From Actinomycetes bacterium (GTDB lineage Bacteria; Actinomycetota; Thermoleophilia; Solirubrobacterales; Solirubrobacteraceae): 63,733 nt of DNA. The DNA lies in NCBI GenBank assembly GCA_021846845.1, contig JAJZWB010000002.1, forward strand, positions 1 to 63,733, read 5' to 3'. The position numbers and the translations under genes were made by a program. This document shows positions 40,165 through 55,035 of this stretch, in pieces. Every line of letters starts with the position of its first letter. Within the stretch, counting starts at the first letter, position 1. The notes under the pieces were generated by a model that made no database searches, had not been told where the DNA came from, and was given only the letters and a program-made list of their open reading frames with translations.

Positions 40165-42339
40165 ATGCGACCCAGCCGTCACCGTCCTGCCGTCACGATC
40201 GTGACCGGCGACGACAGCCCCCTGCGCGTCCTGCTGGTCGAGAACGGCCGCGGCGACGGCCACACGGCCCGCTCGCTGCTCGCGCATCGCTCCGACGCGA
40301 GGTTCGCGGTCGACTGGCGCGCACGCTACAGCGACGGCCTGGCCGCGATCCGCGAAGGGCGACACGACGTCTACCTGATCGGCCGGCGGCTCGGCGGTCG
40401 CAGCGGCGTGGAGCTGGTCCGCGAGGCGTTCGCGGGCCGCCCGCCGGCGCCCGTGATCCTGCTCGGAGGCGAGCGTGCCGAGACCGAAACCGCCGCGCTG
40501 GAGCTCGGGGTGGTCGACCAGCTGCTCGCGGCCGAGCTTGATCTGCCCTCGCTGGAGCGGTCGATCCGCTGGGCCCTGCGCCACCATCGGGTGATCGCGG
40601 ACCTGGCCCGCAGCGAGGAGCGCTACTCGCTCGCGATCCGCGCCGCCAACGACGGGATCTGGGATTGGGACCTGATGACCGACGCGCTCTACCTGTCGCC
40701 GCGCTGGTGGGCGATCATCGGACGCCCTCCGCACGGCGACGGGCCCGGGCACGACGGGCGCGGACCGTCCGCCTGGCTCGAGCTGGTGCATCCCGGCGAC
40801 GCGCCGCGCGTGCGCGCGGCGATCGCGGCGCACCTGGACGGGCGCAGCAGCCAGCTCCAGGTGGAGCACCGGATCCGGCACGCCGACGGAGGCTGGCGCT
40901 GGGTCGCCGTCCGCGGGCTCGCGATCCGCGCCGCCGACGGTGTCCCCACGCGGATGGCGGGCTTCCTCTCCGACGTCACCGATCGCCGCCGCGCGCAGGC
41001 GCAGCTCGCGCACGACGCGCTTCACGACACGCTCACCGGGCTTCCGAACCGGACGCTGTTCGCCGACCGCGTCGGCCAGAGCCTGCAGCGCGCGCGCCGG
41101 GACCCGAGCGCCGCCTGCGCCGTGCTGCTGTTCGACGTCGACCGCTTCAAGCTCGTCAACGACAGCCTCGGGCGCAAGGTGGGCGACGCGCTTCTGGTCG
41201 CGCTCGCGGCGAGGGTCGCGTCGGCCCTGCGCCCCGGCGACACGGTCGCGCGGCTGGGCGGCGATGAGTTCGCCGTGCTCGCCCAGGACGTCGCCGACGC
41301 CGGCGACGCGAGCCTGATCGCGGCGCGCATCCTGCGCGCGCTCGACGCGCCTTTCGACCTCGGCGGCCGGGTGCTGTTCGCGAACGTCTCGATCGGGATC
41401 GCGCTCGGCGCCGCCGGGATCGGCGCCGACGAGCTGATCGCCAACGCCGACATCGCGACCTACGACGCCAAGCGCCGCGGGCGCGGGCGCACGGCCCTCT
41501 TCCACGAGGGGATGCGCAGGCGCGTGATAGACCGCCTCGCGCGTGAGAGCGAGTTGCGACAGGTGGTCGAGGGCTGCCTGCTTGGAATCCACTACCAGCC
41601 GATCGTCAACCTGGCGAGCGGGGAGATCTCGGGCATGGAGGCGCTTGCGCGCTGGCCGGCCGACTGGGGCGCGGTCCCGCCGTCGGAGTTCATCTCGATC
41701 GCCGAGGACACCGGGATCATCGCCGCGCTCGGCCAGCAGGTGCTGCGCAAGGCCCTGGCGACGCTGTCGAAGTGGCGTCGCGCCGGCCTGGTCTCCGAGG
41801 GGGTCTGCATGAGCGTCAACCTCTCGGGCCGCCAGCTCGACGATCCCGGCCTGGGAGAGCAGGTGCGGGCCGCTATAGAGCTCGCGCAGGTTCCGCCCGA
41901 GGCGCTGAAGCTGGAGATCACCGAGACCACGCTCGTGTCCGAGCTTGAGCGCGCTCCGGGCGTGTTCGCCGACGTCTGCGCCGGCGGGGTCGGCCTGCAC
42001 CTGGACGACTTCGGGACCGGCTACTCGTCCCTGTCGGCGCTGCACCGCTTCCCGGTCGATGCGCTCAAGATCGACCGCAGCTTCGTCGCCGACCTCGGCC
42101 GCGACGGCGGCGACAGCGAGGTGATCGTGCGCAGCACCGTCGCGATGGCCCACAGCCTCGGGCTCCCGGTGATCGCCGAGGGGATCGAGACCCCCGAGCA
42201 GGGGCGCCGGCTGCGGTCGCTCGGCTGCGAGTTCGGGCAGGGCCATCTGTTCTCGCCCGCGATCAGCTCGCGTGAGACGACCCGACTGCTGCGGGCGTGG
42301 CGGCCGGCGCGGGTGCTGGAGCTGATCGCCGAGCCGTGA
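40165..42339 (+). CDS. pseudo-receiver-PAS-GGDEF-EAL protein (cyclic di-GMP turnover)
   Basis: A 724-residue cytoplasmic signalling protein. Residues about 10-120 look like a response-regulator receiver, but the phosphoacceptor position in [11 protein letters not shown] has Gly where Asp is expected. A PAS/PAC region follows (about 150-275, with [20 protein letters not shown]), then a GGDEF domain with an intact GGDEF motif and an RPGD inhibitory site five residues before it. The EAL domain has [35 protein letters not shown] and AEGIE, so both synthesis and hydrolysis of c-di-GMP look possible. The ATG at 40165 is preferred to a TTG at 40153. It seems to stand alone. Confidence 0.92.
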
Positions 42340-42406
42340 CTGGCCCGGGGCGCGGCCCCGGACGCCGCCCGCGCCCGCAACAGGGGCCGCCGAAGCGCGC
42401 CCCCCC

Positions 42407-42412
42407 TAGAAT
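42407..42412 (+). promoter_or_regulatory. -10-like box TAGAAT at the head of the hisIE-trp gene group
   Basis: TAGAAT ends 7 bases before the hisIE GTG, identical in sequence and spacing to the hrcA box. No leader peptide with Trp or His codons and no attenuator can fit in this layout. Regulation of the trp genes by transcription attenuation at this promoter is therefore unlikely. Confidence 0.5.
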
Positions 42413-42419
42413 CGTGCCC

Positions 42420-43028
42420 GTGGACGACGCCGACGTTGCCTTCGATGAGCGCGGGCTCGTCCCCTGCGTGGTCCAGGACTGGCGCACCGGCGAGGTGCTG
42501 ATGCTCGCCTACATGAACGCCGAGTCGCTGTCGCTCACGCGTCGCACCGGCGAGGCGCACTTCTACAGCCGCAGCCGGGGCGAGCTGTGGCACAAGGGCG
42601 CCACGTCGGGCAACACGCTGGCGGTGCGAGCGATCCGCTACGACTGCGACGGCGACGCGCTGCTGGCGCTGGTCGAGCCGGCCGGACCGGCCTGCCACAC
42701 CGGAGAGCGCACCTGCTTTCACCGCGGGACGCTCGAGCCGCAGGCACCCGCCGAGGCTCTCCCAACGCTCGAGCGCACGATCCTGGAGCGCTCCGTGGCA
42801 CGGCCTGAGGGCTCCTACACGGTCACGCTGCTCGACGATCCCCGCCTGGCGGGAGCCAAGGTGCAGGAGGAGGCGGAGGAGGTCGTGCGAGCCGCGCGTG
42901 AGGAGTCCGACGAGCGCGTAGCGGAGGAGAGCGCCGACGTGCTCTACCACCTGGCCGTGCTGATGCGAGGCCGGGGAATGAGCCTGGCCGACGCCGGACG
43001 GGTGCTCGATGGCCGTCGCCAGCGCTGA
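42420..43028 (+). CDS. hisIE: bifunctional phosphoribosyl-AMP cyclohydrolase / phosphoribosyl-ATP diphosphatase
   Basis: Steps 2 and 3 of histidine synthesis in one protein. HisI covers about residues 1-105 ([33 protein letters not shown], the metal-binding YDCDGD, and CHTGERTCF). HisE covers about 115-202 ([33 protein letters not shown]). The 202-residue length fits the fused enzyme; many actinobacteria keep hisI and hisE apart, so the fusion is notable. GTG 42420 behind TAGAAT is chosen over the frame extension to 42297. It overlaps trpE by 20 bases. Confidence 0.93.
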
Positions 43029-44496
43029 CCCCCGGCTGCGCGGCGGTCCGTCGCCGACGCTCGAGGCCGTGCGCGAGCTGGCACGCGACCACGACCTGAT
43101 CCCGATCTGCGAGACGTTCGTCGACGACTGCCAGACCCCCGTATCGGCATACCTGAAGCTGCGCGGGCTCGACGGATCGCCGACGCCGTCGTTCCTGCTG
43201 GAGTCCGCCGAGCACGGCCGGGTCGGACGCTGGTCGTTCGTCGGCTGCCGCCCGCGCAAGGTGGTGCGCTGGTCGCTGGGCGACCCGGGCGACCCCTACC
43301 GGATCGCGGCCGAGGAGGTGGGGCGCTTCAGCGTCGCGCAGATCGACGGCCTGCCGCCGTTCGCCGGAGGGGCGGTCGGGATGTTCGCCTACGACCTGGT
43401 GCGGACCGTCGAGCCGCTCGGCTCGCCGCCCCCGGACCCCGTCGGGCTGCCCGACCTGGCGCTGATGCTCACCGACGCGCTGGTCGCCTTCGACCACCTC
43501 AAGCGGACCGTAACCGTGGTCGCCAACGTCTACGCCGACGGCGACGTGGAGGCGGCCTACGCGCGCGCCCGGGAGACGATCGCCGAGGTCCGCCGGCGCC
43601 TGGCGGGGCCGCTGCCGCACACCGGCGGCGGGGTGGACCGCCACCGGGAGGCGCCGCGCTTTGAGTCGAACATGACGCGGGAGCGGTTCGAGTCAAACGT
43701 CACGCGGATCATCGAGTACATCCATGCCGGCGACGCGTTCCAGGTCGTCCCGTCGCAGCGCTGGTCGGCGTCCGTTCCGGTGCAGGCGTTCTCGATCTAC
43801 CGGGGCCTGAGAGCCGTCAACCCGAGCCCGTACATGTACTTCCTGGACTTCGGCGACTTCGAGATCGCCGGCGCCTCGCCCGAGCCGCTGATCACCGTGT
43901 CGGGAAGGCGCGTGTCGACACGGCCGATCGCCGGCACGCGGCCGAGGGGCCACAGCGCCGAGGAGGACCGCCGGATCGCCGAGGACCTGCTCGCCGACGA
44001 GAAGGAGCGGGCCGAGCACGTGATGCTCGTCGACCTCGGGCGCAACGACCTCGGGCGGGTTTGCGAGTACGGGTCGGTGTTCGTCGAGAGCTTCATGGCG
44101 GTCGAGAGCTACAGCCACGTCATGCACATCGTCTCCAGCGTCGCCGGAACGCTGCGGCCCGGCGTCGACTCCCTCACCGCGCTGCGCGCCGTGCTGCCGG
44201 CCGGGACCCTTTCAGGCGCGCCGAAGGTGCGCGCGATGCAGATCATCGACGAGCTGGAGCCGGTCAAGCGCGGCGGCTACGGGGGCGCGATCGGCTGGGT
44301 GAGCTACACCGGCGAGCTCGACACCTGCATCCACATCCGAACGGTCGTCGTCAAGGACGGGGTCGCTCACATCCAGGCCGGCGGAGGCACCGTCGCCGAC
44401 GCCAAGCCCGACTACGAGTTCCGCGAGTCGGAGGCCAAGTCGCGCGCGGTGCTGGCCGCGATCGAGCTGGCGGTCGCCCAGCCCGAGTGGCCCTAG
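43009..44496 (+). CDS. trpE: anthranilate synthase component I
   Basis: Converts chorismate to anthranilate with ammonia from TrpG; first step of tryptophan synthesis. The 495 residues have the chorismate-binding core: [80 protein letters not shown] and [15 protein letters not shown]. An N-terminal regulatory region with [17 protein letters not shown] is where tryptophan feedback binding occurs in homologues. The start lies inside the 3' end of hisIE. trpG follows after 27 bases. Confidence 0.96.
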
Positions 44497-44523
44497 GCGG
44501 CGCAACGCCGATACGTTTTCGCC

Positions 44524-45162
44524 ATGCGGGTGCTCGTCCTCGACAACTACGACAGCTTCACCTACAACCTCGTGCAGTACGTGGGGATGTACTCCGACCC
44601 CGCTCCAGAGATCGAGGTCGTGCGCAACGACCGCGCGACGGTCGACGAGCTGCTGATCCGCGGCTATGACCGGGTCATCGTCTCTCCCGGGCCGTGCACG
44701 CCCGACGAGGCCGGGATCTCGCTGGAGGCGGTGCGCCGCTTCCCGCAGGCGGGCATCCCGACGCTCGGGGTCTGTCTCGGCCACCAGGCGCTCGTCCAGG
44801 CATGGGGCGGGCGAGTCATCACCCACCGTCCCGTGCACGGCAAGACGACGCTGATCGAGCACGACCGCAGGACGATCTTCCGGGGCCTGAAGGTTCCGCT
44901 CGAGGTCGGCCGCTATCACTCGCTGATCGCCGACCCGAAGCTGCCGGAGGCGCTGGAGTGCAGCGCGTCAGCCGACGGGATCGTGATGGCGGTGCGCCAT
45001 CGCCGGCTGCCGGCCGAGGGGGTCCAGTTCCACCCTGAGTCCGTCCTGACCGAGCAGGGGCACAAGCTGCTGGCCAACTTCCTGGCGCAGGAGGGGGCGG
45101 CCGCAGAGACGCACGAGCCTTGGCCGGACCTGATGCCCGCCGACCCGGGGTCACCCTGGTGA
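44524..45162 (+). CDS. trpG: anthranilate synthase component II (glutamine amidotransferase)
   Basis: Supplies ammonia from glutamine to TrpE; it may also serve 4-amino-4-deoxychorismate synthase, as TrpG/PabA proteins often do. The 212 residues show LDNYDSFTYNLVQY, SPGPCTPDEAG, the nucleophile Cys in GVCLGHQA, RYHSLIA and QFHPESVLTEQG (catalytic His and Glu). A TACGTT hexamer ends 6 bases before the ATG. The stop overlaps the trpD start (GTGA). Confidence 0.95.
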   Translation: MRVLVLDNYDSFTYNLVQYVGMYSDPAPEIEVVRNDRATVDELLIRGYDRVIVSPGPCTPDEAGISLEAVRRFPQAGIPTLGVCLGHQALVQAWGGRVITHRPVHGKTTLIEHDRRTIFRGLKVPLEVGRYHSLIADPKLPEALECSASADGIVMAVRHRRLPAEGVQFHPESVLTEQGHKLLANFLAQEGAAAETHEPWPDLMPADPGSPW

Positions 45163-46208
45163 GGCCTGGCTCGGAGCTGCTGACGCGCTGCATCGATGAG
45201 CTCGCCGGCGGCCGCGACCTGAGCGCCGAGCGGACCTCGGAGGTGCTGGCGGAGATCATGGCCGGCGAGGCGACCGAGGTCCAGATCGCCGCCTTCCTGA
45301 TCGCGCTGCGGACCAAGGGGGAGACGGTCGAGGAGCTGGCGGGGCTGGCGCTGACGATGCGCCGCATGGCGACGGCCGTGCGGGTCGCGCGCCGCGATCT
45401 GCTGGACACCGCCGGGACCGGCGGCGGGCCGCGGACGTTCAACGTCTCCACGACCGCCGCGCTGATCGCGGCCGGCGCGGGCTGCCCGGTCGCCAAGCAC
45501 GGCAACCGCTCGGCGACCGGCCTGTCGGGCTCCGCCGACGTGCTGGAGGCGCTCGGGGCCAGGATCGGACTGTCGCCGCCCGCGGTGGCGCGCTGCATCG
45601 AGGAGGTCGGCTTCGGCTTCATGTTCGCCCCGGCCCACCATCAGGCGACCCGCTACGTGGTGCCGGTCCGCGTCCAGCTCGGGGTGCGAACGATCTTCAA
45701 CTTCCTCGGTCCGCTGACCAACCCGGCGGGCGCGACCCGGCAGCTGATCGGGGTCTCCGACGCCGCGTACCTTGAGAAGATGGCGGGCGCGCTGGCGCTC
45801 CTGGGGACGGAGCATGCGCTGCTGGTGTCAAGCGAGGACGGCCTGGACGAGCTGTCGCTGTCGGCGCCCACGCGCGTGGTCGAGGTGCGCGACGGCGAGC
45901 TGTCCTCCTACGTCGTCGCTCCCGAGGACGTCGGCCTGAGGCGGTTCCCCGCGGAGGCGATCCCGGGTGGCGATCCGGCTCGCAACGCGGCGATCGCGCG
46001 GGGGATCCTGGCCGGGGAGACGGGGCCGGCGCGCGACCTCGCGATTCTCAACGCGGGGGCGGCGATCTACGCGGGCGGGGGCGCCGAGACGCTCGTGGAC
46101 GGGATGGAGGCAGCCCGGCGGGCGATCGACTCGGGCGCGGCGGCCGACGCCCTGGAGCGATTCGTGGCCGCGACCGTGGCGCTGGACGAGAGCGCGGCCG
46201 GGACGTGA
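45159..46208 (+). CDS. trpD: anthranilate phosphoribosyltransferase
   Basis: Joins anthranilate and PRPP. The 349 residues have DTAGTGGGPRTFNVSTTAAL (PRPP loop), KHGNRSATGLSGSADVLEAL, FMFAPAHHQAT and FNFLGPLTNPA, all typical. An in-frame ATG-like start at 45120 lies inside trpG; the GTG at 45159 overlaps the trpG stop (GTGA) and gives the usual N-terminus RPGSELLTRCIDELAGGRDL. Its stop lies in a 17-base tandem duplication shared with the trpC start. Confidence 0.95.
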   Translation: MRPGSELLTRCIDELAGGRDLSAERTSEVLAEIMAGEATEVQIAAFLIALRTKGETVEELAGLALTMRRMATAVRVARRDLLDTAGTGGGPRTFNVSTTAALIAAGAGCPVAKHGNRSATGLSGSADVLEALGARIGLSPPAVARCIEEVGFGFMFAPAHHQATRYVVPVRVQLGVRTIFNFLGPLTNPAGATRQLIGVSDAAYLEKMAGALALLGTEHALLVSSEDGLDELSLSAPTRVVEVRDGELSSYVVAPEDVGLRRFPAEAIPGGDPARNAAIARGILAGETGPARDLAILNAGAAIYAGGGAETLVDGMEAARRAIDSGAAADALERFVAATVALDESAAGT

Positions 46209-46231
46209 ACGCGGGCGGGACGTGAACGCGC
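46201..46231 (+). repeat. 17-base tandem duplication of the trpD-trpC junction
   Basis: The 14-base string gggacgtgaacgcg occurs at 46201-46214 and 46218-46231 (period 17). The first copy holds the trpD stop within GTGA, the second the GTG start of trpC. The likely ancestral state was a GTGA overlap, as at trpG-trpD and trpB-trpA; the duplication moved the start away by 17 bases. Confidence 0.9.
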
Positions 46232-47031
46232 TCCGGGGGATCGTGGCTCGCACGCGCGCGGCGGTCGACGCGCGGCGCGCGGCGGTGGGCCTGCCGGAGC
46301 AGGAGGCGCTCGCCGCGGCGCGCCTGGCCGAGGACCCGCCGCGCAGCTTCGAGCAGGCGCTGCGCCGGCCCGGGCTGTCGGTGATCGCCGAGCACAAGCG
46401 CAGCTCGCCGTCGGCCGGCGTGATCCGCGACGATCTCCAGCTGGAGGACGTGGTGCGCGCGTACGGGCGCGGCGGCGCGGCTGCGCTGTCGGTGCTGACC
46501 GAGGAGCTCAGCTTCGGCGGCTCGCTGGACGACCTTCGGCGCGCGCGGGCGTCGTCGGAGCTGCCCGTGCTGCGCAAGGACTTCATCGTCGACGGCTACC
46601 AGGTCGTCGAGTCGGCGGCGGCGGGCGCCGACGCGATCCTGCTGATCGTCGCGGCGCTGACGCCCGCGCAGCTCGGACGGCTGCACGCGCTGGCCGCCGA
46701 GTACGCGCTCGGCGTGCTCGTGGAGGTGCACGACGCCGACGAGCTGGCGGTAGCGACGGAGCTGGGAGCGTCGGTGATCGGGATCAACAACCGGGACCTG
46801 ACGACCCTGCGGGTGCGGACCGAGACGACCTTCGAGCTGCTGGCGGGGGTCCCGCCGCAGTCCGTGAAGGTGTCGGAGTCCGGCTGGCGCGAGCGGGCCG
46901 AGCTGGAGCGACTGCAGGCTGCCGGGGTGGACGCCGTGCTGGTGGGCGAGGCGCTGATGCGCTCGCCGGACATCGAGGCGGCGTGCCGCGCGCTGGCCGG
47001 CGGGGCGCCGACCGGCCTGCGCGTGACCTAG
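46222..47031 (+). CDS. trpC: indole-3-glycerol phosphate synthase
   Basis: Closes the indole ring. The 269-residue TIM-barrel protein shows SVIAEHKRSSPSAGVI, ALSVLTEELSFGGS, VLRKDFIVDGYQV, DAILLIVAAL, GVLVEVHDADEL, IGINNRDLTTL and VKVSESGW, with the catalytic Lys and Glu residues of the family in place. GTG 46222 is in the right frame; the earlier GTG at 46205 is not. It is a separate gene, not fused to trpF. The last 14 codons, including the stop, are repeated downstream. Confidence 0.96.
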   Translation: MNALRGIVARTRAAVDARRAAVGLPEQEALAAARLAEDPPRSFEQALRRPGLSVIAEHKRSSPSAGVIRDDLQLEDVVRAYGRGGAAALSVLTEELSFGGSLDDLRRARASSELPVLRKDFIVDGYQVVESAAAGADAILLIVAALTPAQLGRLHALAAEYALGVLVEVHDADELAVATELGASVIGINNRDLTTLRVRTETTFELLAGVPPQSVKVSESGWRERAELERLQAAGVDAVLVGEALMRSPDIEAACRALAGGAPTGLRVT

Positions 47032-47130
47032 CCGGCGTTCGGCGGCGCGCCCGGAGCCGGCCTGCGCGTGACCCGGCCGGCGCTCGGCGGCGCGCCCGGA
47101 GCCGGCCTGCGCGTGACCCGGCCGGCGTTC
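46999..47130 (+). repeat. echo repeat: trpC 3' end copied twice in frame beyond the stop
   Basis: The trpC end (46999-47040, 42 bases including the TAG stop) is followed by two nearly identical 45-base copies (47041-47085, 47086-47130). In both copies the stop position reads CGG instead of TAG, and the frame stays open. Each copy would encode a 15-residue unit (GGAPGAGLRVTRPAL type). The array fills most of the 154 bases before the HtrA-like gene. Confidence 0.95.
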
Positions 47131-47185
47131 GCCGGCGCCCGGCCTGCTTTAGCTGGCCTTTGGCGGAGGCGCGAACACTCGTGGG

Positions 47186-48298
47186 GTGAGCTCGGTGCGC
47201 TGGTCTCACCTCATCTCCGCGGTCATCGGCGGGCTGGTCGTCGCCGGCGGCCTGGCCGTGCTGGGAGTCAACAGGAATCGGCGGAGCGTGACGTACCTGG
47301 AGGGGCCGCCGGTCGCTGCGGAGGCCGGCTTCGCGGCCTCATCCGGCTCCACGCTCAACGACATCTACCAGATCGACGCACCCGCGGTCGTGTTCGTGGA
47401 CGCGAAGATCCTGGAGCGCTTCCCGAGCCCGTTCGGTGCCGCCCGCGCGATCGGCACCTCGACCGGCTCGGGCTTCCTGGTCGATCGTGCCGGAGACATC
47501 CTGACCAGCTACCACGTGGTCGCCGGCGCCGCCCGCACCGGGGGAGTCACCGTCACGTTCGAGAACAACCAGGTGCGCAGCGCCAGCGTGATCGCGGTCG
47601 AGCCAAACCAGGACCTGGCCGTCCTGCGGGTTGCGCCCGCAGCTCTGCCGCGCGTGACGCCGCTGAGGCTCGGCGATTCCAGCGCGGTGCGGGTCGGCGA
47701 CCCGACGTTCGCGATCGGAAACCCGTTCGGGGTCGACCGGACGCTGACCAGCGGGATCGTCTCGGCGCTGCAGCACCAGATCCTCACGACGGACGGGCGC
47801 ACGATCGACAACGTCTTCCAGACCGACCAGCCGATGATCCCCGGCAGCGCCGGCGGCCCGCTGCTGAGCTCCAGCGGGAGGGTGATCGGGATCAACTCCG
47901 AGGTCAACGCGGTGGTCGGCGGCGGAGGGGAGTCCGAGCGGCTCTCGCTCGCGATCCCGAGCGACGTCGCGCAGGCGCTGCTGCAGACGGTCGCCCACCA
48001 GCGGGCGATCACGGTCGCCTACCTCGGTCTCGGGGCCTCCTCCGCCAGGCCGTCCAGGTTCGGCGCCGTCGTGCAGGGCGTCGATCCCCGGGGGCCGGCG
48101 GGGCAGGCGGGGATCAGACGAGGCGACACGATCGTGAAGATCGACGGGATCCCGGTCGAGTCGATCAGCGACGTGCTCACGGTCGTCTCGACGCTCAGCC
48201 CTGACAACCGGGTCCAGCTGACGGTGCGCGACCGCGGACATCTGCGGCTGCTGACGGTGCGGCTCAGCGGCCGGCCGGTGGCGTCCTCGCCGCGCTAG
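47186..48298 (+). CDS. HtrA-like trypsin-fold PDZ protein, probable pseudoprotease
   Basis: A 370-residue membrane-anchored protein of the HtrA/DegP type: one N-terminal helix (about 8-28), a trypsin-like domain (about 65-265) and a PDZ domain (about 275-365, with VDPRGPAGQAGIRRGDTIVK). His110 (SYHVVAG) and Asp143 (NQDLAVL) of the catalytic triad are present. The serine motif GNSGG reads GSAGG (residues 220-224), so the nucleophile position is Ala222 and a serine sits one place earlier. The fold should be intact but proteolysis is doubtful. It lies between trpC and trpF on the same strand, an unusual place for this family. Confidence 0.85.
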   Translation: MSSVRWSHLISAVIGGLVVAGGLAVLGVNRNRRSVTYLEGPPVAAEAGFAASSGSTLNDIYQIDAPAVVFVDAKILERFPSPFGAARAIGTSTGSGFLVDRAGDILTSYHVVAGAARTGGVTVTFENNQVRSASVIAVEPNQDLAVLRVAPAALPRVTPLRLGDSSAVRVGDPTFAIGNPFGVDRTLTSGIVSALQHQILTTDGRTIDNVFQTDQPMIPGSAGGPLLSSSGRVIGINSEVNAVVGGGGESERLSLAIPSDVAQALLQTVAHQRAITVAYLGLGASSARPSRFGAVVQGVDPRGPAGQAGIRRGDTIVKIDGIPVESISDVLTVVSTLSPDNRVQLTVRDRGHLRLLTVRLSGRPVASSPR

Positions 48299-48335
48299 CG
48301 CGGCCACCCGCGGCGCGTTCGTACGATTGTGTGCC

Positions 48336-49081
48336 GTGGACGCTCACGCTGCCCCCAAGATCAAGTTCTGCGGCATCGTCGACGCCGGCGACGCGCGTCT
48401 GGCGGTGCAGGCGGGCGCCTGGGCGCTCGGCGTGATCCTGTGGCCCGGCTCCCGCCGCCACTGCCCGACGGCGGTCGCGGCGCGGATCGCCGCCGAGCAC
48501 CGCCGGCGCGTCGAGCTCGTCGGGGTGTTCGTCAACCCGACGCTGGGCCAGGTGGCGCGTGCGGCCGACGAGATCGGCCTGACGATGATCCAGCTGCACG
48601 GCGACGAGGGACCGGCGTTCTGCGCCGAGGTGGCGCGGCGGACCGGCTGTCGCGTGATCAAGGCGGCACGCGTGCGGAGCGGCGCCGACATCCGGGGCCT
48701 CACGACCTACCACACGGACTTCCATCTGCTGGACAGCTACAGCCCCGGCCAGCCAGGGGGCACGGGCGAGACGTGGTCCTGGGAGCTGGCGCGATCGCAT
48801 CGGGGCGCGCCGGTGATCCTCTCCGGCGGCCTGCACCCGGGCAACGTGGCCGAGGCGATCGCCGCCGTGCGTCCCTACGCGGTCGACGTCGCCACCGGGG
48901 TCGAGGATCCCGAGCGCGCGCCGCGCAAGGACCCGGAGCGGCTGCTGGCGTTCGCATCCGCGGTGGCATCGACTCACGTCGCCCCCCCGGGCATCGCGAG
49001 CGGGCCGGGGGCGGCGAGCGGGCCGGGGGCGGCGAGTGGGCCGGGGGCGGCGAGCGGGCTCGCGCAGGCGGCGGCGACGTC

Positions 49082-49085
<4 letters not shown>
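48336..49085 (+). CDS. trpF: phosphoribosylanthranilate isomerase
   Basis: Third step of the tryptophan branch: Amadori rearrangement of phosphoribosylanthranilate. The 249-residue protein has [20 protein letters not shown] (usual KxCGI, catalytic Cys), [35 protein letters not shown] and VDVATGVED, all conserved. It ends with a 6-residue unit (ASGPGA) repeated about three times plus an Ala/Ser tail not found in usual TrpF. GTG 48336 lies 8 bases after TACGAT (48322-48327). The stop overlaps the trpB start (GTGA). Confidence 0.94.
48996..49059 (+). repeat. in-frame 18-base tandem repeat in the trpF tail
   Basis: The unit gcgagcgggccgggggcg occurs at 48996-49013, 49014-49031 and 49032-49049 (one change), plus a partial copy to 49059. 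It encodes Ala-Ser-Gly-Pro-Gly-Ala repeats just before the stop. The unit length keeps the frame. Confidence 0.95.
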
Positions 49086-50253
<1,168 letters not shown>

Positions 50254-50257
<4 letters not shown>

Positions 50258-51075
50258 GCGCGATGCCGGCCGGGGCCGAGCGGATCGCCGAGGCGTTCGC
50301 CCATGCCCGTGCGGAGGGTCGCGTCGCGGCGCTGATGCCATACCTGATGGGCGGCTATCCGGATCTCGACGGCTCACGCGCGATCGGGCTCGCCTACGCG
50401 GACGCAGGCGCGGACCTGGTCGAGCTGGGCATCCCGTTCTCGGACCCGCTCGCGGACGGCCCCGTGATCCACGCGGCCGCGACCGCGGCGCTGCGCTCCG
50501 GCGCGACCGTTCCCGCCGTGCTTGAGGTCGCCCGTGCGATCGCCGAGCGGGTTCCGGTGGTGGTCATGTGCTACGTGAACCCCATCCTGGCGCGCGGGGT
50601 CGAGCGGTTCGCCGATCAGCTGGTGGCCGCCTCGGTCAGCGGCGTGATCGTCCCGGACCTGCCCTTCGAGGAGGCTTCCGAGCTGCGGGCGGCATGCGCA
50701 GCTCGGGGGCTCGCGCTGGTACCGCTGGTGGCTCCCACGACGCCGGAGGATCGGCTGGAGCGGATCGGGGCCGCCGCGAGCGGGTTCGTATACACCGTAT
50801 CTGTCACCGGCACGACGGGCGAGCGCACCGGGACCGACAGCGGCCTGAGCGCCGTGCTGGCGCGCGCAGCCGCGCACACGACCGTCCCGGTGGCCGTCGG
50901 CTTCGGGATCTCGACGCCTGAGCAGGCGGCGGCCGCGGCGGCCGCCGGAGCCGACGGAGTGATCGTCGGCAGCCGCCTCGTGCGCGCCGCCGGGGAGGCG
51001 CAGAACGCCCCGCGGGCGACCGGAGATCTGGTGCGAAGCTTCGCCGGGGCGCTGTCCGGGGCGTCACTCGGTTAG
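50254..51075 (+). CDS. trpA: tryptophan synthase alpha chain
   Basis: Cleaves indole-3-glycerol phosphate and channels indole to TrpB. The 273 residues have [30 protein letters not shown] with the catalytic Glu, [11 protein letters not shown] with the catalytic Asp, [22 protein letters not shown] and [11 protein letters not shown]. The start overlaps trpB. A small membrane-protein gene follows after 14 bases; a TAGGAT hexamer formed partly by the trpA stop lies before it. Confidence 0.96.
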
Positions 51076-51089
51076 GATCCCCGCTCGAG

Positions 51090-51254
51090 ATGGGACTGAT
51101 TCTCACCGCAACCGTCGGACTGTGCATCTGGATCGTGGTCTGGTCGCTGAACGTCAGCGGCCTGGACGCGCTCTTCTTTGCGATCGGCATGGTGCTGATC
51201 GCGATCGGGGTCCGCAACCTGCTCCCCAACCTACCCGGCCGCCGCCGGGACTAG
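51090..51254 (+). CDS. small membrane protein (54 residues)
   Basis: ATG at 51090 opens 54 codons with nearly all third positions G or C. The product has two hydrophobic helices: LILTATVGLCIWIVVWSL (about 3-20) and ALFFAIGMVLIAIGV (about 28-42), joined by a short polar turn, then a basic tail (PGRRRD). It is probably a two-helix membrane protein with both ends inside. TAGGAT (51073-51078) ends 11 bases before the start. Role unknown; its place between trpA and a binding lipoprotein could reflect transport or chance. Confidence 0.7.
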   Translation: MGLILTATVGLCIWIVVWSLNVSGLDALFFAIGMVLIAIGVRNLLPNLPGRRRD

Positions 51255-51265
51255 CCGGCGCCTCG

Positions 51266-52408
51266 ATGCGAGGCGTCTCCCGCTCAAGGCCACGGGTTCT
51301 CTGGGCCTGCGGCGTCGTCGCTGCGCTCGTGATCGCGGGCTGCGGGACGACGGGCACGACCGGAGTCACGGTCTCCGGGCACCGGCTGACGATCTACGCC
51401 AGCGAGCCGCCCGGCTCGACCGGCGGCCAGGTGGCGACCGACGTGATCGACGCGGAGCGCCTCGCGCTCACCCAGTCGGGATCGACGGTCGGATCGTTCA
51501 CGGTCGACCTCAGGGTGCTGCACGGCCGTGAGATCTCCGACAACGCCCGCGCCGCGATCCAGGACCAGACCGCGATCGCGTACCTCGGCGAGGTCGTGCC
51601 AGGCACTTCCCAGGACTCGCTTCCGATCAACAACCAGCTGGATCTGCTCCAGGTCAGCCCCACCGACACGGCCGTCTACCTGACCCAGGCGACGCCCGCG
51701 GTCTCCGGGGCTCCTGGCAAGTACTACCCGTCGTCGTCCACCTACCACAGGACGTTCGCCCGGGTGTGCCCGACGACCGCCCAGGAGGCGCAGGCGATCG
51801 TCTCCCGCATGCAGTCGCTCAACGCCGGCAGCGTCTACATCGCCTCCGACGGCACACCCTACGGCGCCTCGATCGCGGCCGAGGTGCGCGCCGACGCGCC
51901 TTCGCACGGCCTGACGATCGCTTCGGCGCCGGGCAGCGCCGGGGCGGTCTTCTACGGCGGCAATCTGCCCGCCGATGCGGTGGCGGCGCTGAACCGCTAC
52001 GCAGCCGCGGGCCCGGCGAAGCTGTTCGTCCCCTCCGGGCTCTACTCGGACTCGCTGGTCGCGGGTCTGAGCACGGCCGCGCGGGCCCGCCTGTACGTGT
52101 CCACGCCGGGATTCGCGCCCGGGGCGGCGCCGGCTTCCGCCGTGAGCTTCGCAACCTCGTTCAGGACCGCCTACGGCCACCAGCCGGCGCCCCAGGCGAT
52201 CTTCGGCTACGAGGCGATGGCTGCGGTGCTGTCGGTCCTGCGTGAGGCGGGCGCCAGCGCCAACAAGCGCGCCACGGTCGTGAAGGACTTCCTCGCGATC
52301 ACCGATCGCCGCTCCGTGCTCGGCACCTATTCCCTGCACGACGGGGATACGTCGCTGGCGCCGTTCACCTTCGCCCGCGTCCGGGGCGGGCAGCTCGTCG
52401 TCGGCTGA
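51266..52408 (+). CDS. lipoprotein, Leu/Ile/Val-type periplasmic binding protein (Peripla_BP_6 family)
   Basis: A 380-residue protein with a lipoprotein signal (VLWACGVVAALVIAGC, Cys about residue 26). The mature part resembles LivK-like type I binding proteins: LTIYASEPPGS, IDAERLALTQSG, RAAIQDQTAIAYLGEVVPG, and a second lobe with SVYIASDGTPYGASIAAEV and YEAMAAVLSVLREAG. It would bind a small ligand, perhaps an amino acid, outside the membrane. No permease or ATPase genes of an ABC transporter are next to it, so it may act as a stand-alone receptor. The ATG at 51266 gives the clean signal peptide. Confidence 0.8.
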   Translation: MRGVSRSRPRVLWACGVVAALVIAGCGTTGTTGVTVSGHRLTIYASEPPGSTGGQVATDVIDAERLALTQSGSTVGSFTVDLRVLHGREISDNARAAIQDQTAIAYLGEVVPGTSQDSLPINNQLDLLQVSPTDTAVYLTQATPAVSGAPGKYYPSSSTYHRTFARVCPTTAQEAQAIVSRMQSLNAGSVYIASDGTPYGASIAAEVRADAPSHGLTIASAPGSAGAVFYGGNLPADAVAALNRYAAAGPAKLFVPSGLYSDSLVAGLSTAARARLYVSTPGFAPGAAPASAVSFATSFRTAYGHQPAPQAIFGYEAMAAVLSVLREAGASANKRATVVKDFLAITDRRSVLGTYSLHDGDTSLAPFTFARVRGGQLVVG

Positions 52409-52443
52409 CCCGACCGGGCGCTTCGGCTGTGGGTGCCTGCGGA

Positions 52444-52449
52444 TAGGCT
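52444..52449 (+). promoter_or_regulatory. -10-like box TAGGCT of polA
   Basis: TAGGCT ends 6 bases before the polA ATG, again in the leaderless position, 36 bases after the lipoprotein stop. No Shine-Dalgarno sequence precedes the ATG. Confidence 0.4.
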
Positions 52450-52455
52450 GGTCCG

Positions 52456-55035
52456 ATGGCCGCGGAGCTCTTCCTGATCGACGGAAACAGCCTCGCGTAC
52501 CGCGCCTTCTTCGCGCTGCCCGAGTCGATCGCCACCTCCACCGGCCAGCCGACCAACGCCATCCTCGGGTTCGCGTCGATGCTGGTCAAGATCCTCACCG
52601 ACTACGGGCCGAAGGCGACGGTGGTCGTCTGGGACGCCGGCTCCAGCGGTCGCAAGGAGATGTACGGCGAGTACAAGGCGCAGCGCTCCAGCCGTCCCGA
52701 CCTCCTGCGCGAGCAGTGGCCCCACCTGGAGCCGCTGGTCGACGCGTTCGGCTATCTGAACCTGAAGGTCCAGGGGTTCGAGGCCGACGACGTGATCGCT
52801 TCGCTGGCCGAGGTGGCCAAGCGCCACGAGCCGCGGATCGAGGTGACGGTCGTAACCGGGGACCGCGACGCCTACCAGCTCGTCGACGACCGGGTGCGGA
52901 TCATGACGACGTCACGCGGGATCACCGACACGCGCGTCTACGACCGCCAGGGGGTTATCGACCGCTACGGGATCCCGCCCGAGCTGGTGCCCGATTTCAT
53001 CGGCCTCAAGGGCGACACCTCCGACAACATCCCCGGCGTCCCCGGGATCGGTGACAAGACCGCGAGCGAGCTGCTGCAGCGGTTCGGCTCGCTGGAGGAG
53101 GTGCTCGCCCACATCGACGAGATCGGCGGCGCGAAGCGCAGGCAGAACCTGACCGAGCATGCCGACGATGCGCGCCTGTCGAAGTCGCTGGCGACCGCGC
53201 GGCGCGACGTGCCGCTCGGGGACATCGACGTCGAGGCGCTCGTCTCGGCTTCCCCGGATCGGTCGCGGCTGCGAGAGGTGTTCCGCGAGTTCGAGCTGCG
53301 CGAGCCGCTGCGCAGGCTCGAGGAGGCGCTGGGCTCCCCGGCCGCGGCGGCGCCGTCCCCTGAGGCCGACGAGCGGCTGACCGCGACCGTGCGCGAGGGC
53401 TCTCTGAGCGACATCGGGGCGCTGCCGGCCGGAGAGGTCGCGGTCGCGATGCGCGCACCTGAGGTGCCCGAGGGCGAGCTGTTCGCCGCCGAGCAGCAGG
53501 CGTGGCGGTTCGGCGTGCACGCCGGCGACCGGGTTCTGTGCGGGTTCGCGCCGGGCCCGGCGGAGCTGGTCGTGGCGCTCGGCTCGCGCCCCGTCGTCGC
53601 CCACGACGCGAAGTCCCTGGACCGGGTCCCGGAGAACCTCACGCACGACACCGAGGTGGCGGCCTACCTGCTTGAGCCCGCGCGTCGCGCCTACCCGTTC
53701 CGCGAGCTGTGCGAGGAGCGCGGCCTCGCCGCCGCCGTCGAGGACGAGGCCGGCGCGGACGCGCTGCTCGCGCACGCGCTCGCGGCCTGGCAGCGAGAGC
53801 AGCTGACCGAGCGCGGGCTGATCCAGCTCCTGGCCGACGTCGAGCTGCCGCTGGTGCGGATCCTGCGCGGGATGGAGCTGGCCGGCGTGCGCCTTGACAC
53901 GGCCCGCCTGCAGGGGATCTCGGCGCGCGTGAAGGCCGAGGCGGACGCGCTGGAGTCCGAGATCCACGCGCTGGCGGGGGAGGAGTTCATGCTCGGCTCG
54001 CCCCGGCAGCTGGAGGAGATCCTGTTCGTCAAGCTGGGCCTGTCGCGCAAGCGGCGCGGCAAGACCGGCTACTCCACCGACGCGCGCGTGCTGCAGGCGA
54101 TCCGCTCCGAGCACCCGATCGTCCCCAGGATCGAGCGGTGGCGCGAGCTGACCAAGCTCGCTCAGACCTACCTGGATGCGCTGCCCCTGCTGGTCGACTC
54201 CGACAGCCGCCTGCACACGACCTTCAACCAGACCGCGGCGACGACCGGCAGGCTCTCGTCCAACAACCCGAACCTGCAGAACATCCCCATCAGGACCCCG
54301 CTCGGTCGCGAGATCCGCGCCTGCTTCGTGGCGCCGCCGGGGCGGCTCCTGGTGTCGGCGGACTACTCGCAGGTGGAGCTGCGGCTGCTGGCCCACATCG
54401 CCGGCGAGGAGGCGCTGAAGGAGATCTTCCGACGCGGCGAGGACGTTCACACGGCCACCGCGTGCCGCGTGTTCGGCGTCACCCCGGACCAGATCGACGC
54501 CGGGATGCGCTCCAAGTCCAAGATGATCAACTACGGGATCGTCTACGGCCTGTCGGCATACGGGATGGCGGATCGGCTCGACATACCGCAGTCCGAGGCG
54601 GACGAGTTCATCGAGCGCTACCTGGCCGGGTTCCCGGCGGTCCGGGCGTTCATCGAGAGCACGATCGAGCGGGCCACGGAGGACGGCTACGTCGCGACCC
54701 TGTTCGGCCGCCGCCGCCAGGTCCCGGAGCTGCGCGCGAGACGCTGGGAGGTGCGCAGGCAGGGCGAGCGCTTCGCGGTCAACATGGTGATCCAGGGCAC
54801 CGCGGCGGACATCATGAAGGTCGCGATGGTCCGCTGCGACCACGCGCTGAGCGAAGCCGGGCTGCGCTCGCGGATGGTGCTGCAGATCCACGACGAGCTG
54901 CTGTTCGAGTGTCCCGAGGACGAGGCGGAGCGCGTCCGTGAACTGGCGGTGCGGGAGATGGCCGCCGCATACGAGATGGACCCCCCGCTTGCGGTCGACG
55001 CCGGGATCGGCGCCGACTGGCTGGCGGCCAAGTGA
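52456..55035 (+). CDS. polA: DNA polymerase I
   Basis: Repair and Okazaki-fragment polymerase, 859 residues. The 5' nuclease domain (about 1-300) begins ELFLIDGNSLAYRAFFALP with FIGLKGDTSDNIPGVPGIGD. The middle (about 310-470) has the size of a 3'-5' exonuclease domain, but its DEDD acidic residues are not recognisable, so proofreading is probably lost, as in mycobacterial Pol I. The polymerase domain has DYSQVELRLLAHIAGE (motif A), RSKSKMINYGIVYGLSAYGM (motif B) and QIHDELLFE (motif C). Synteny with rpsA and coaE downstream is typical of actinobacteria. Confidence 0.97.
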   Translation: MAAELFLIDGNSLAYRAFFALPESIATSTGQPTNAILGFASMLVKILTDYGPKATVVVWDAGSSGRKEMYGEYKAQRSSRPDLLREQWPHLEPLVDAFGYLNLKVQGFEADDVIASLAEVAKRHEPRIEVTVVTGDRDAYQLVDDRVRIMTTSRGITDTRVYDRQGVIDRYGIPPELVPDFIGLKGDTSDNIPGVPGIGDKTASELLQRFGSLEEVLAHIDEIGGAKRRQNLTEHADDARLSKSLATARRDVPLGDIDVEALVSASPDRSRLREVFREFELREPLRRLEEALGSPAAAAPSPEADERLTATVREGSLSDIGALPAGEVAVAMRAPEVPEGELFAAEQQAWRFGVHAGDRVLCGFAPGPAELVVALGSRPVVAHDAKSLDRVPENLTHDTEVAAYLLEPARRAYPFRELCEERGLAAAVEDEAGADALLAHALAAWQREQLTERGLIQLLADVELPLVRILRGMELAGVRLDTARLQGISARVKAEADALESEIHALAGEEFMLGSPRQLEEILFVKLGLSRKRRGKTGYSTDARVLQAIRSEHPIVPRIERWRELTKLAQTYLDALPLLVDSDSRLHTTFNQTAATTGRLSSNNPNLQNIPIRTPLGREIRACFVAPPGRLLVSADYSQVELRLLAHIAGEEALKEIFRRGEDVHTATACRVFGVTPDQIDAGMRSKSKMINYGIVYGLSAYGMADRLDIPQSEADEFIERYLAGFPAVRAFIESTIERATEDGYVATLFGRRRQVPELRARRWEVRRQGERFAVNMVIQGTAADIMKVAMVRCDHALSEAGLRSRMVLQIHDELLFECPEDEAERVRELAVREMAAAYEMDPPLAVDAGIGADWLAAK

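Follow-up and report, generated by a model that had tools for sequence, protein, structure and literature searches.

A degenerate HtrA-like protein, probably a pseudoprotease, in the tryptophan gene cluster of a Solirubrobacteraceae bacterium

Why would a tryptophan gene cluster carry the gene for an HtrA-like quality-control protease in which alanine occupies the position of the catalytic serine? The question is raised by the 63,733-nt stretch of contig JAJZWB010000002.1 (positions 1 to 63,733; assembly GCA_021846845.1) from an Actinomycetes bacterium of the family Solirubrobacteraceae, order Solirubrobacterales (hereafter, the window). Its htrA-like open reading frame (ORF; positions 47186-48298, forward strand) starts with GTG and encodes 370 amino acids. 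As stated in an earlier, sequence-only reading of this DNA, it is inserted between trpC and trpF; all three genes are on the forward strand. Our analysis suggests, with a probability of roughly 0.6, that the product is a catalytically dead HtrA which is still held to its fold and probably serves as a chaperone or scaffold tethered to the membrane, within a lineage where the gene is being discarded. The features of the locus are listed in Table 1.

Table 1. Features of the trpC-htrA-trpF region of the window
Feature	Position	Strand	Basis or remark
trpC	46222..47031	+	upstream neighbour of htrA, same strand
htrA promoter element, direct repeat TTTAGC-N5-TTTGGCG	47148..47165	+	conserved in relatives as TTTAGC-N5-TTCAGCG
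-10-like AACACT, six bases before the GTG start (leaderless-type)	47174..47179	+	sequence
htrA-like gene, 370 aa, catalytically degenerate (GSAGGP)	47186..48298	+	ORF, Pfam, alignment to relatives
Single N-terminal hydrophobic helix (membrane anchor), residues 10-25	47213..47260	+	sequence; AlphaFold2 helix, low confidence for residues 1-54
Trypsin-like domain, residues ~55-268	47348..47989	+	Pfam Trypsin_2; HtrA fold matches
His110 codon, triad His retained	47513..47515	+	alignment
Asp143 codon, triad Asp retained	47612..47614	+	alignment
Ser221-Ala222 codons, Ala222 in place of the catalytic Ser	47846..47851	+	alignment
PDZ domain, residues 279-359, retained	48020..48262	+	Pfam PDZ_2; alignment
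TACGAT, leaderless-type -10 directly before the trpF start	48322..48327	+	sequence, genus comparison
trpF	48336..49085	+	downstream neighbour of htrA, same strand

The catalytic centre and its surroundings

The window protein displays the architecture of the HtrA family (S1C), in which one or more PDZ domains follow a trypsin-like domain. Both Pfam matches score above the cut-offs (Trypsin_2, E 4e-31, residues 94-236; PDZ_2, E 8e-13, residues 279-359), and the closest solved structures, by sequence as well as by fold, are HtrAs. The AlphaFold2 model (mean pLDDT 73.9, pTM 0.61) served for assignment of the fold and secondary structure, not of the active-site geometry. The PDZ domain lacks a short insertion found in most trp-linked relatives. 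The other hallmark of the family, the His-Asp-Ser triad with the GNSGG motif, is incomplete: His110 (SYHVV) and Asp143 (NQDLAVL) are there, but the nucleophile motif reads PGSAGGP, with Ala222 at the nucleophile position. In gap-free alignments with solved HtrAs and with the trp-linked relatives, His110, Asp143, Ser221 and Ala222 fall in the triad columns. Thus, the ORF, the Pfam matches and the alignment bear out the earlier identification of an HtrA-like protein with His and Asp in place and Ala as the would-be nucleophile. Three more HtrAs are encoded in the same genome, all with GNSGG.

For comparison, we used 102 distinct trp-linked HtrAs remaining after removal of duplicates, 94 of which come from outside the genus of the window and have a readable protease domain. 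The nucleophilic Ser is kept in all 94; the preceding residue is Asn in 97% of them and Ser in the rest, so that the GSSGG variants retain the true Ser. GSAGG was found in this species alone among the sequences examined, which rules out the conserved GSAGG subfamily that had been considered. At 74 near-invariant positions (conserved in at least 95% of the 94 outside relatives, which were themselves scored leave-one-out), the window protein deviates 20 times, against an average of 1.1 and a maximum of 6 in the relatives; the deviation is therefore neither a chance motif nor a single base error.

The changes are clustered along the chain (runs test, p ~0.001), with none of the 14 conserved sites changed at residues 163-194, five of the seven at 215-222 and nine of the 11 at 239-269. 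Those closest to the triad are N108S beside the His, G137A and D139E ahead of the Asp, and A215Q, I217M, N218I, N221S and S222A around the nucleophile position. Furthermore, R197H eliminates the activation Arg of loop L3, N218I eliminates the Asn of L1, and much of the L1/L2 region is substituted. Counting along shared motifs, that is, from sequence only, we take R197 and N218 to be the presumed equivalents of DegS Arg178 and Asn197; by the same count, the presumed counterparts of DegS Thr167, Thr169, Gln191 and Pro161 (T186, T188, Q212 and P180, respectively) are kept. Arg178 is central to the activation cluster of DegS, to which Asn197 connects the active-site loop (PMC11642142). The initial description of the fold, anchor and PDZ domain as otherwise complete consequently holds for the fold core, the anchor and the PDZ domain but not for the surroundings of the active site, and the protein is very probably devoid of catalytic activity.

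The trpC-htrA-trpF arrangement and its promoter element

In the window, the genes are arranged in the order trpE-G-D-C-htrA-F-B-A, with polA further downstream. Among named genomes, an HtrA gene lies directly downstream of trpC at 13 trpC loci, those with informative labels being assigned to Solirubrobacterales, Solirubrobacteraceae or Conexibacter, and at none of the trpC loci labelled with another phylum. In whole genomes of the order, trpC-htrA-trpF recurs in four families. This is the standard layout in Solirubrobacterales, a group of soil bacteria, the order being judged from named relatives; a protease at this position, which had seemed out of place from the sequence of the window, is a conserved feature. 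The window gene occupies the same place and strand as the trp-linked orthologs of the order. In a quick protein tree, for which the program warns of long branches, it groups with the other six members of its genus (SH-aLRT 95) inside a clade of 28 trp-linked sequences (99), and is therefore a trp-linked ortholog, rather than an unlinked paralog that moved in. Nothing relevant to HtrAs linked to trp genes in this group was found in the literature searched.

Two tandem repeats lie in the adjoining genes: a 45-bp unit (3.2 copies, 90% match, 46998-47138) begins within the last part of trpC and extends into the gap before htrA, and an 18-bp unit (3.6 copies, 48996-49059) encodes ASGPGA repeats in the C-terminal tail of TrpF. 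No Rfam match to RNA elements was obtained in the 42000-53000 region.

The trp-linked htrAs of the relatives (for instance, L240, L241, L208, L005 and L026) are recurrently preceded by TTTAGC-N5-TTCAGCG and then, near the start codon, by a -10-like CACACT or CATCCT. The spacing of the direct repeats, 11 bases, suggests a site for an OmpR/PhoB-type response regulator that would overlap the promoter. When scored against shuffled sequences, the element was detected at 45 of 67 trp-linked versus 2 of 33 unlinked htrAs in the family of the window, the underlying model having been trained on eight of the trp-linked sites scored; related forms are found in other families. The exact pattern TTTAG-N6-TTCAGCG occurs once per genome, always at the trp-linked htrA, in seven of the ten genomes searched, compared to one hit for the reversed control pattern across all ten. 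The window copy retains the first repeat and has two mismatches in the second, and outscores all 100 of its shuffles. With two mismatches allowed, no excess of sites indicative of a regulon was observed in the window's own genome (20 hits versus 33 for the reversed control).

Downstream of htrA, TACGAT precedes trpF in most members of the genus, including the window, with or without htrA. Judging from this motif, trpF would not have to rely on read-through of htrA, and its expression therefore need not account for the retention of htrA.

Retention, degeneration and loss within the genus

The genus comprises 28 species genomes, of which eight keep htrA (G000, which is the window genome, G001, G002, G004, G010, G014, G015 and G021, the latter cut by a contig end), 18 have lost it and two could not be judged (G043 and G020). 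In the 18 genomes without the gene, trpC adjoins trpF across a gap of at most 221 bases. A search for HtrA remnants in the gene-less species found nothing convincing, the only similarity being matches of 16-17 residues within the 84-base gap of G022. The retained copies are diverse: GNSGG with a PDZ domain in G002, GSSGG with PDZ in G001 and G004, GNSGG without PDZ in G010, GSAGG with PDZ in the window, GASGG without PDZ in G015 (L026/L239), where Ser is kept in a degraded site, and GVGGS without PDZ in G014 (L030/L238), where Ser is lost and the motif rearranged. Hence, a single genus shows, side by side, copies without the PDZ domain, copies without the nucleophile and genomes without the gene. 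No convincing similarity to a PDZ remnant was detected behind the PDZ-less copy of G010. In G004 (L258, 7768-11438), unlike in other members of the genus, htrA and trpF are separated by 3.7 kb, which contain a large reverse-strand ORF (1170 codons from stop to stop) with a segment resembling a secretion signal near its start.

Degeneration is not confined to the window: G015 and G014 deviate at 20 and 19 of 62 near-invariant positions, respectively, compared to 1-6 deviations in G001, G002, G004 and G010. In the HtrA tree, the window protein joins G010 (support 80), and G014 and G015 form a pair that is then joined by G004 (95 and 96). A tree of concatenated TrpD-C-F-B-A pairs the window with G011 and places G014/G015 as the sister group of five gene-less species (supports 100 and 89). 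The loss of Ser in G014 is apparently independent of that in the window, and the alignments and trees make two independent degenerations likely, one in the window lineage and one in G014/G015, short of proof given the long branches.

The terminal branches of the degenerate copies are long in the HtrA tree relative to the TrpDCFBA tree (0.97/0.20 in the window, 0.91/0.23 in G015 and 0.81/0.24 in G014), whereas those of the intact copies are not (0.11/0.20 in G010, 0.34/0.18 in G002, 0.40/0.20 in G001 and 0.33/0.23 in G004; lineages with intact HtrA span 0.11-0.46 for HtrA and 0.18-0.59 for TrpDCFBA overall). The window htrA thus evolves faster than its relatives and than the flanking trp genes. 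Because synonymous sites are saturated and omega is not identifiable from htrA alone, we fitted a joint codon model in which htrA shares branch times with trpC and trpD. The htrA background has an estimated omega of 0.050, the window branch one of 0.107 and the G014/G015 branches one of 0.108. A model with the background value on these branches was rejected (2dlnL 25 for the window and 46 for G014/G015), and so was omega = 1 (2dlnL 190 and 340, respectively). Averaged over its whole branch, including any part that preceded the loss of Ser, the window htrA has been under purifying selection and far from neutrality. The site classes are consistent with this: between the window and G010, 27% of positions in the most conserved quartile and 79% in the most variable quartile differ, compared to 0% in the most conserved quartile between the intact copies G002 and G010. 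The reading frame is intact, with no frameshift, and the GC content at the three codon positions (0.69/0.53/0.92) resembles that of functional genes nearby. Altogether, selection has probably maintained the fold of the window protein along most, if not all, of the branch.

Possible functions of the degenerate protein

These observations could be accommodated as follows. A membrane-anchored HtrA with a trypsin-like domain and one PDZ domain, normally an active serine protease, would have taken its place between trpC and trpF early in the history of the order. In the window lineage, the change of Ser to Ala, N218I, R197H and the substitution of much of L1/L2 would have abolished proteolysis, with the fold core, PDZ domain, anchor, His and Asp kept. 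As a chaperone or scaffold, the protein might still bind unfolded or PDZ-recognized clients at the outer face of the membrane, and the other HtrAs of the cell would take care of proteolysis. The survival of such a non-proteolytic task is the most likely scenario, and the PDZ scaffold or non-catalytic role, one of the options raised at the outset, becomes the leading one. Given the deletion of the gene in most species of the genus, the window gene may represent a late stage before loss.

Known systems offer partial parallels. In several Gram-negative species, HtrAs devoid of proteolytic activity keep proteins from aggregating and protect the cell (PMC11642142). DegP S210A and other catalytic mutants, in which Ser is changed to Ala at the same position, are used as chaperone-only HtrAs and still suppress aggregation (PMC11642142). 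However, those are laboratory mutants with otherwise intact sites, and DegP forms cages and has two PDZ domains, whereas the window protein arose in nature and has degenerated around the site. DegS, AlgW and PepD-type proteins share with it the N-terminal anchor, the trypsin-like domain and the single PDZ domain, a layout found in the GNSGG-bearing trp-linked relatives as well, but the window protein lacks the nucleophile, the equivalents of DegS Arg178 and Asn197, and much of L2. By analogy, the nearest precedent for a non-catalytic protein beside an active HtrA is MamO of magnetotactic bacteria, a repurposed HtrA pseudoprotease that is required for MamE-dependent proteolysis without a triad of its own (PMC4794232). 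Both proteins combine an HtrA-type trypsin fold and conserved His and Asp with a replaced nucleophile (Thr in MamO, Ala in the window), and both coexist with active HtrAs in the cell. They differ in that the window protein has a PDZ domain and is known from sequence, and in that its genus also deletes the gene.

Several points weigh against a retained function. The promoter element of the window is degenerate in its second half, in contrast to the perfect element of G015 with its similarly degenerate protein. Dispensability is plain from the absence of htrA in G011, the nearest relative in the trp tree, and from the position of G014/G015 as sisters of gene-less species. For the window, omega averages over a long branch whose synonymous sites are saturated; if the last ~6% of that branch had evolved neutrally, a similar value could result. 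For HtrAs of Gram-positive bacteria, no chaperone role has been demonstrated definitively (PMC12826053).

The main rival explanation builds on the first two of these points: the gene would be a decaying relict, its use recently lost, drifting towards the deletion seen in 18 of the 28 genomes, with the ORF still open because GC-rich DNA contains few stops. In simulations, 169 neutral substitutions left the ORF free of stops about half of the time; an open frame is weak evidence at this GC content, and we rejected it as proof of selection. We nonetheless consider a relict rather unlikely, as the changes at conserved sites are concentrated in the catalytic and activation loops instead of being evenly spread, and no frameshift is present, although indels accumulate at rates that would make many expected among so many neutral substitutions. 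The same two observations counter the concern about recent neutrality. In addition, omega = 1 over the branch is rejected, and the fold core, PDZ domain and codon GC pattern are kept. Less probable still is a role as a non-catalytic regulator of another HtrA, for instance, through hetero-oligomerization or activation, by analogy with MamO acting on MamE (PMC4794232). The three GNSGG-bearing HtrAs of the genome would provide possible targets, but the inter-subunit activation cluster has itself been altered (R197H and N218I), and none of our tests favours a regulator over a chaperone.

Proteolysis through Ser221, as had been proposed, or by an unusual mechanism is very improbable, even though this Ser adjoins the nucleophile position and His and Asp are retained. 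The column of Ser221 is Asn in nearly all relatives, and because the GSSGG relatives have Ser there in addition to the normal Ser, in an ungapped alignment, Ser221 is ruled out as a replacement nucleophile; moreover, substitutions also affect the Asn of L1, the Arg of L3 and much of L2. An assembly or sequencing artefact in a metagenome bin would be conceivable for the single genome of a species in 219 contigs, but is hardly credible with 20 changes at conserved positions in an intact frame, normal codon bias and an intact trp cluster.

The broader proposition, that a dedicated, single-target, promoter-controlled HtrA of the trp cluster became non-proteolytic at least twice in one genus, once with and once without the PDZ domain, can be put forward only tentatively. 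The order-wide trpC-htrA-trpF arrangement, together with an element that occurs once per genome, suggests dedicated regulation that is unstudied and was not found described in the literature searched. Few naturally occurring HtrA pseudoproteases of bacteria are backed by experiments, and MamO is the one that we found. The kind of protein is already known, and the interest of the locus is in the evolutionary series rather than in a new mechanism. In a close-knit genus where one fixed locus holds an active copy, a degenerate copy or none, comparison could take the place of mutation in telling the chaperone role of HtrA from its protease role. If the proposed scenario is correct, this natural series, from active through degenerate to absent, would be a case in which evolution separates the non-proteolytic function of HtrA from proteolysis.
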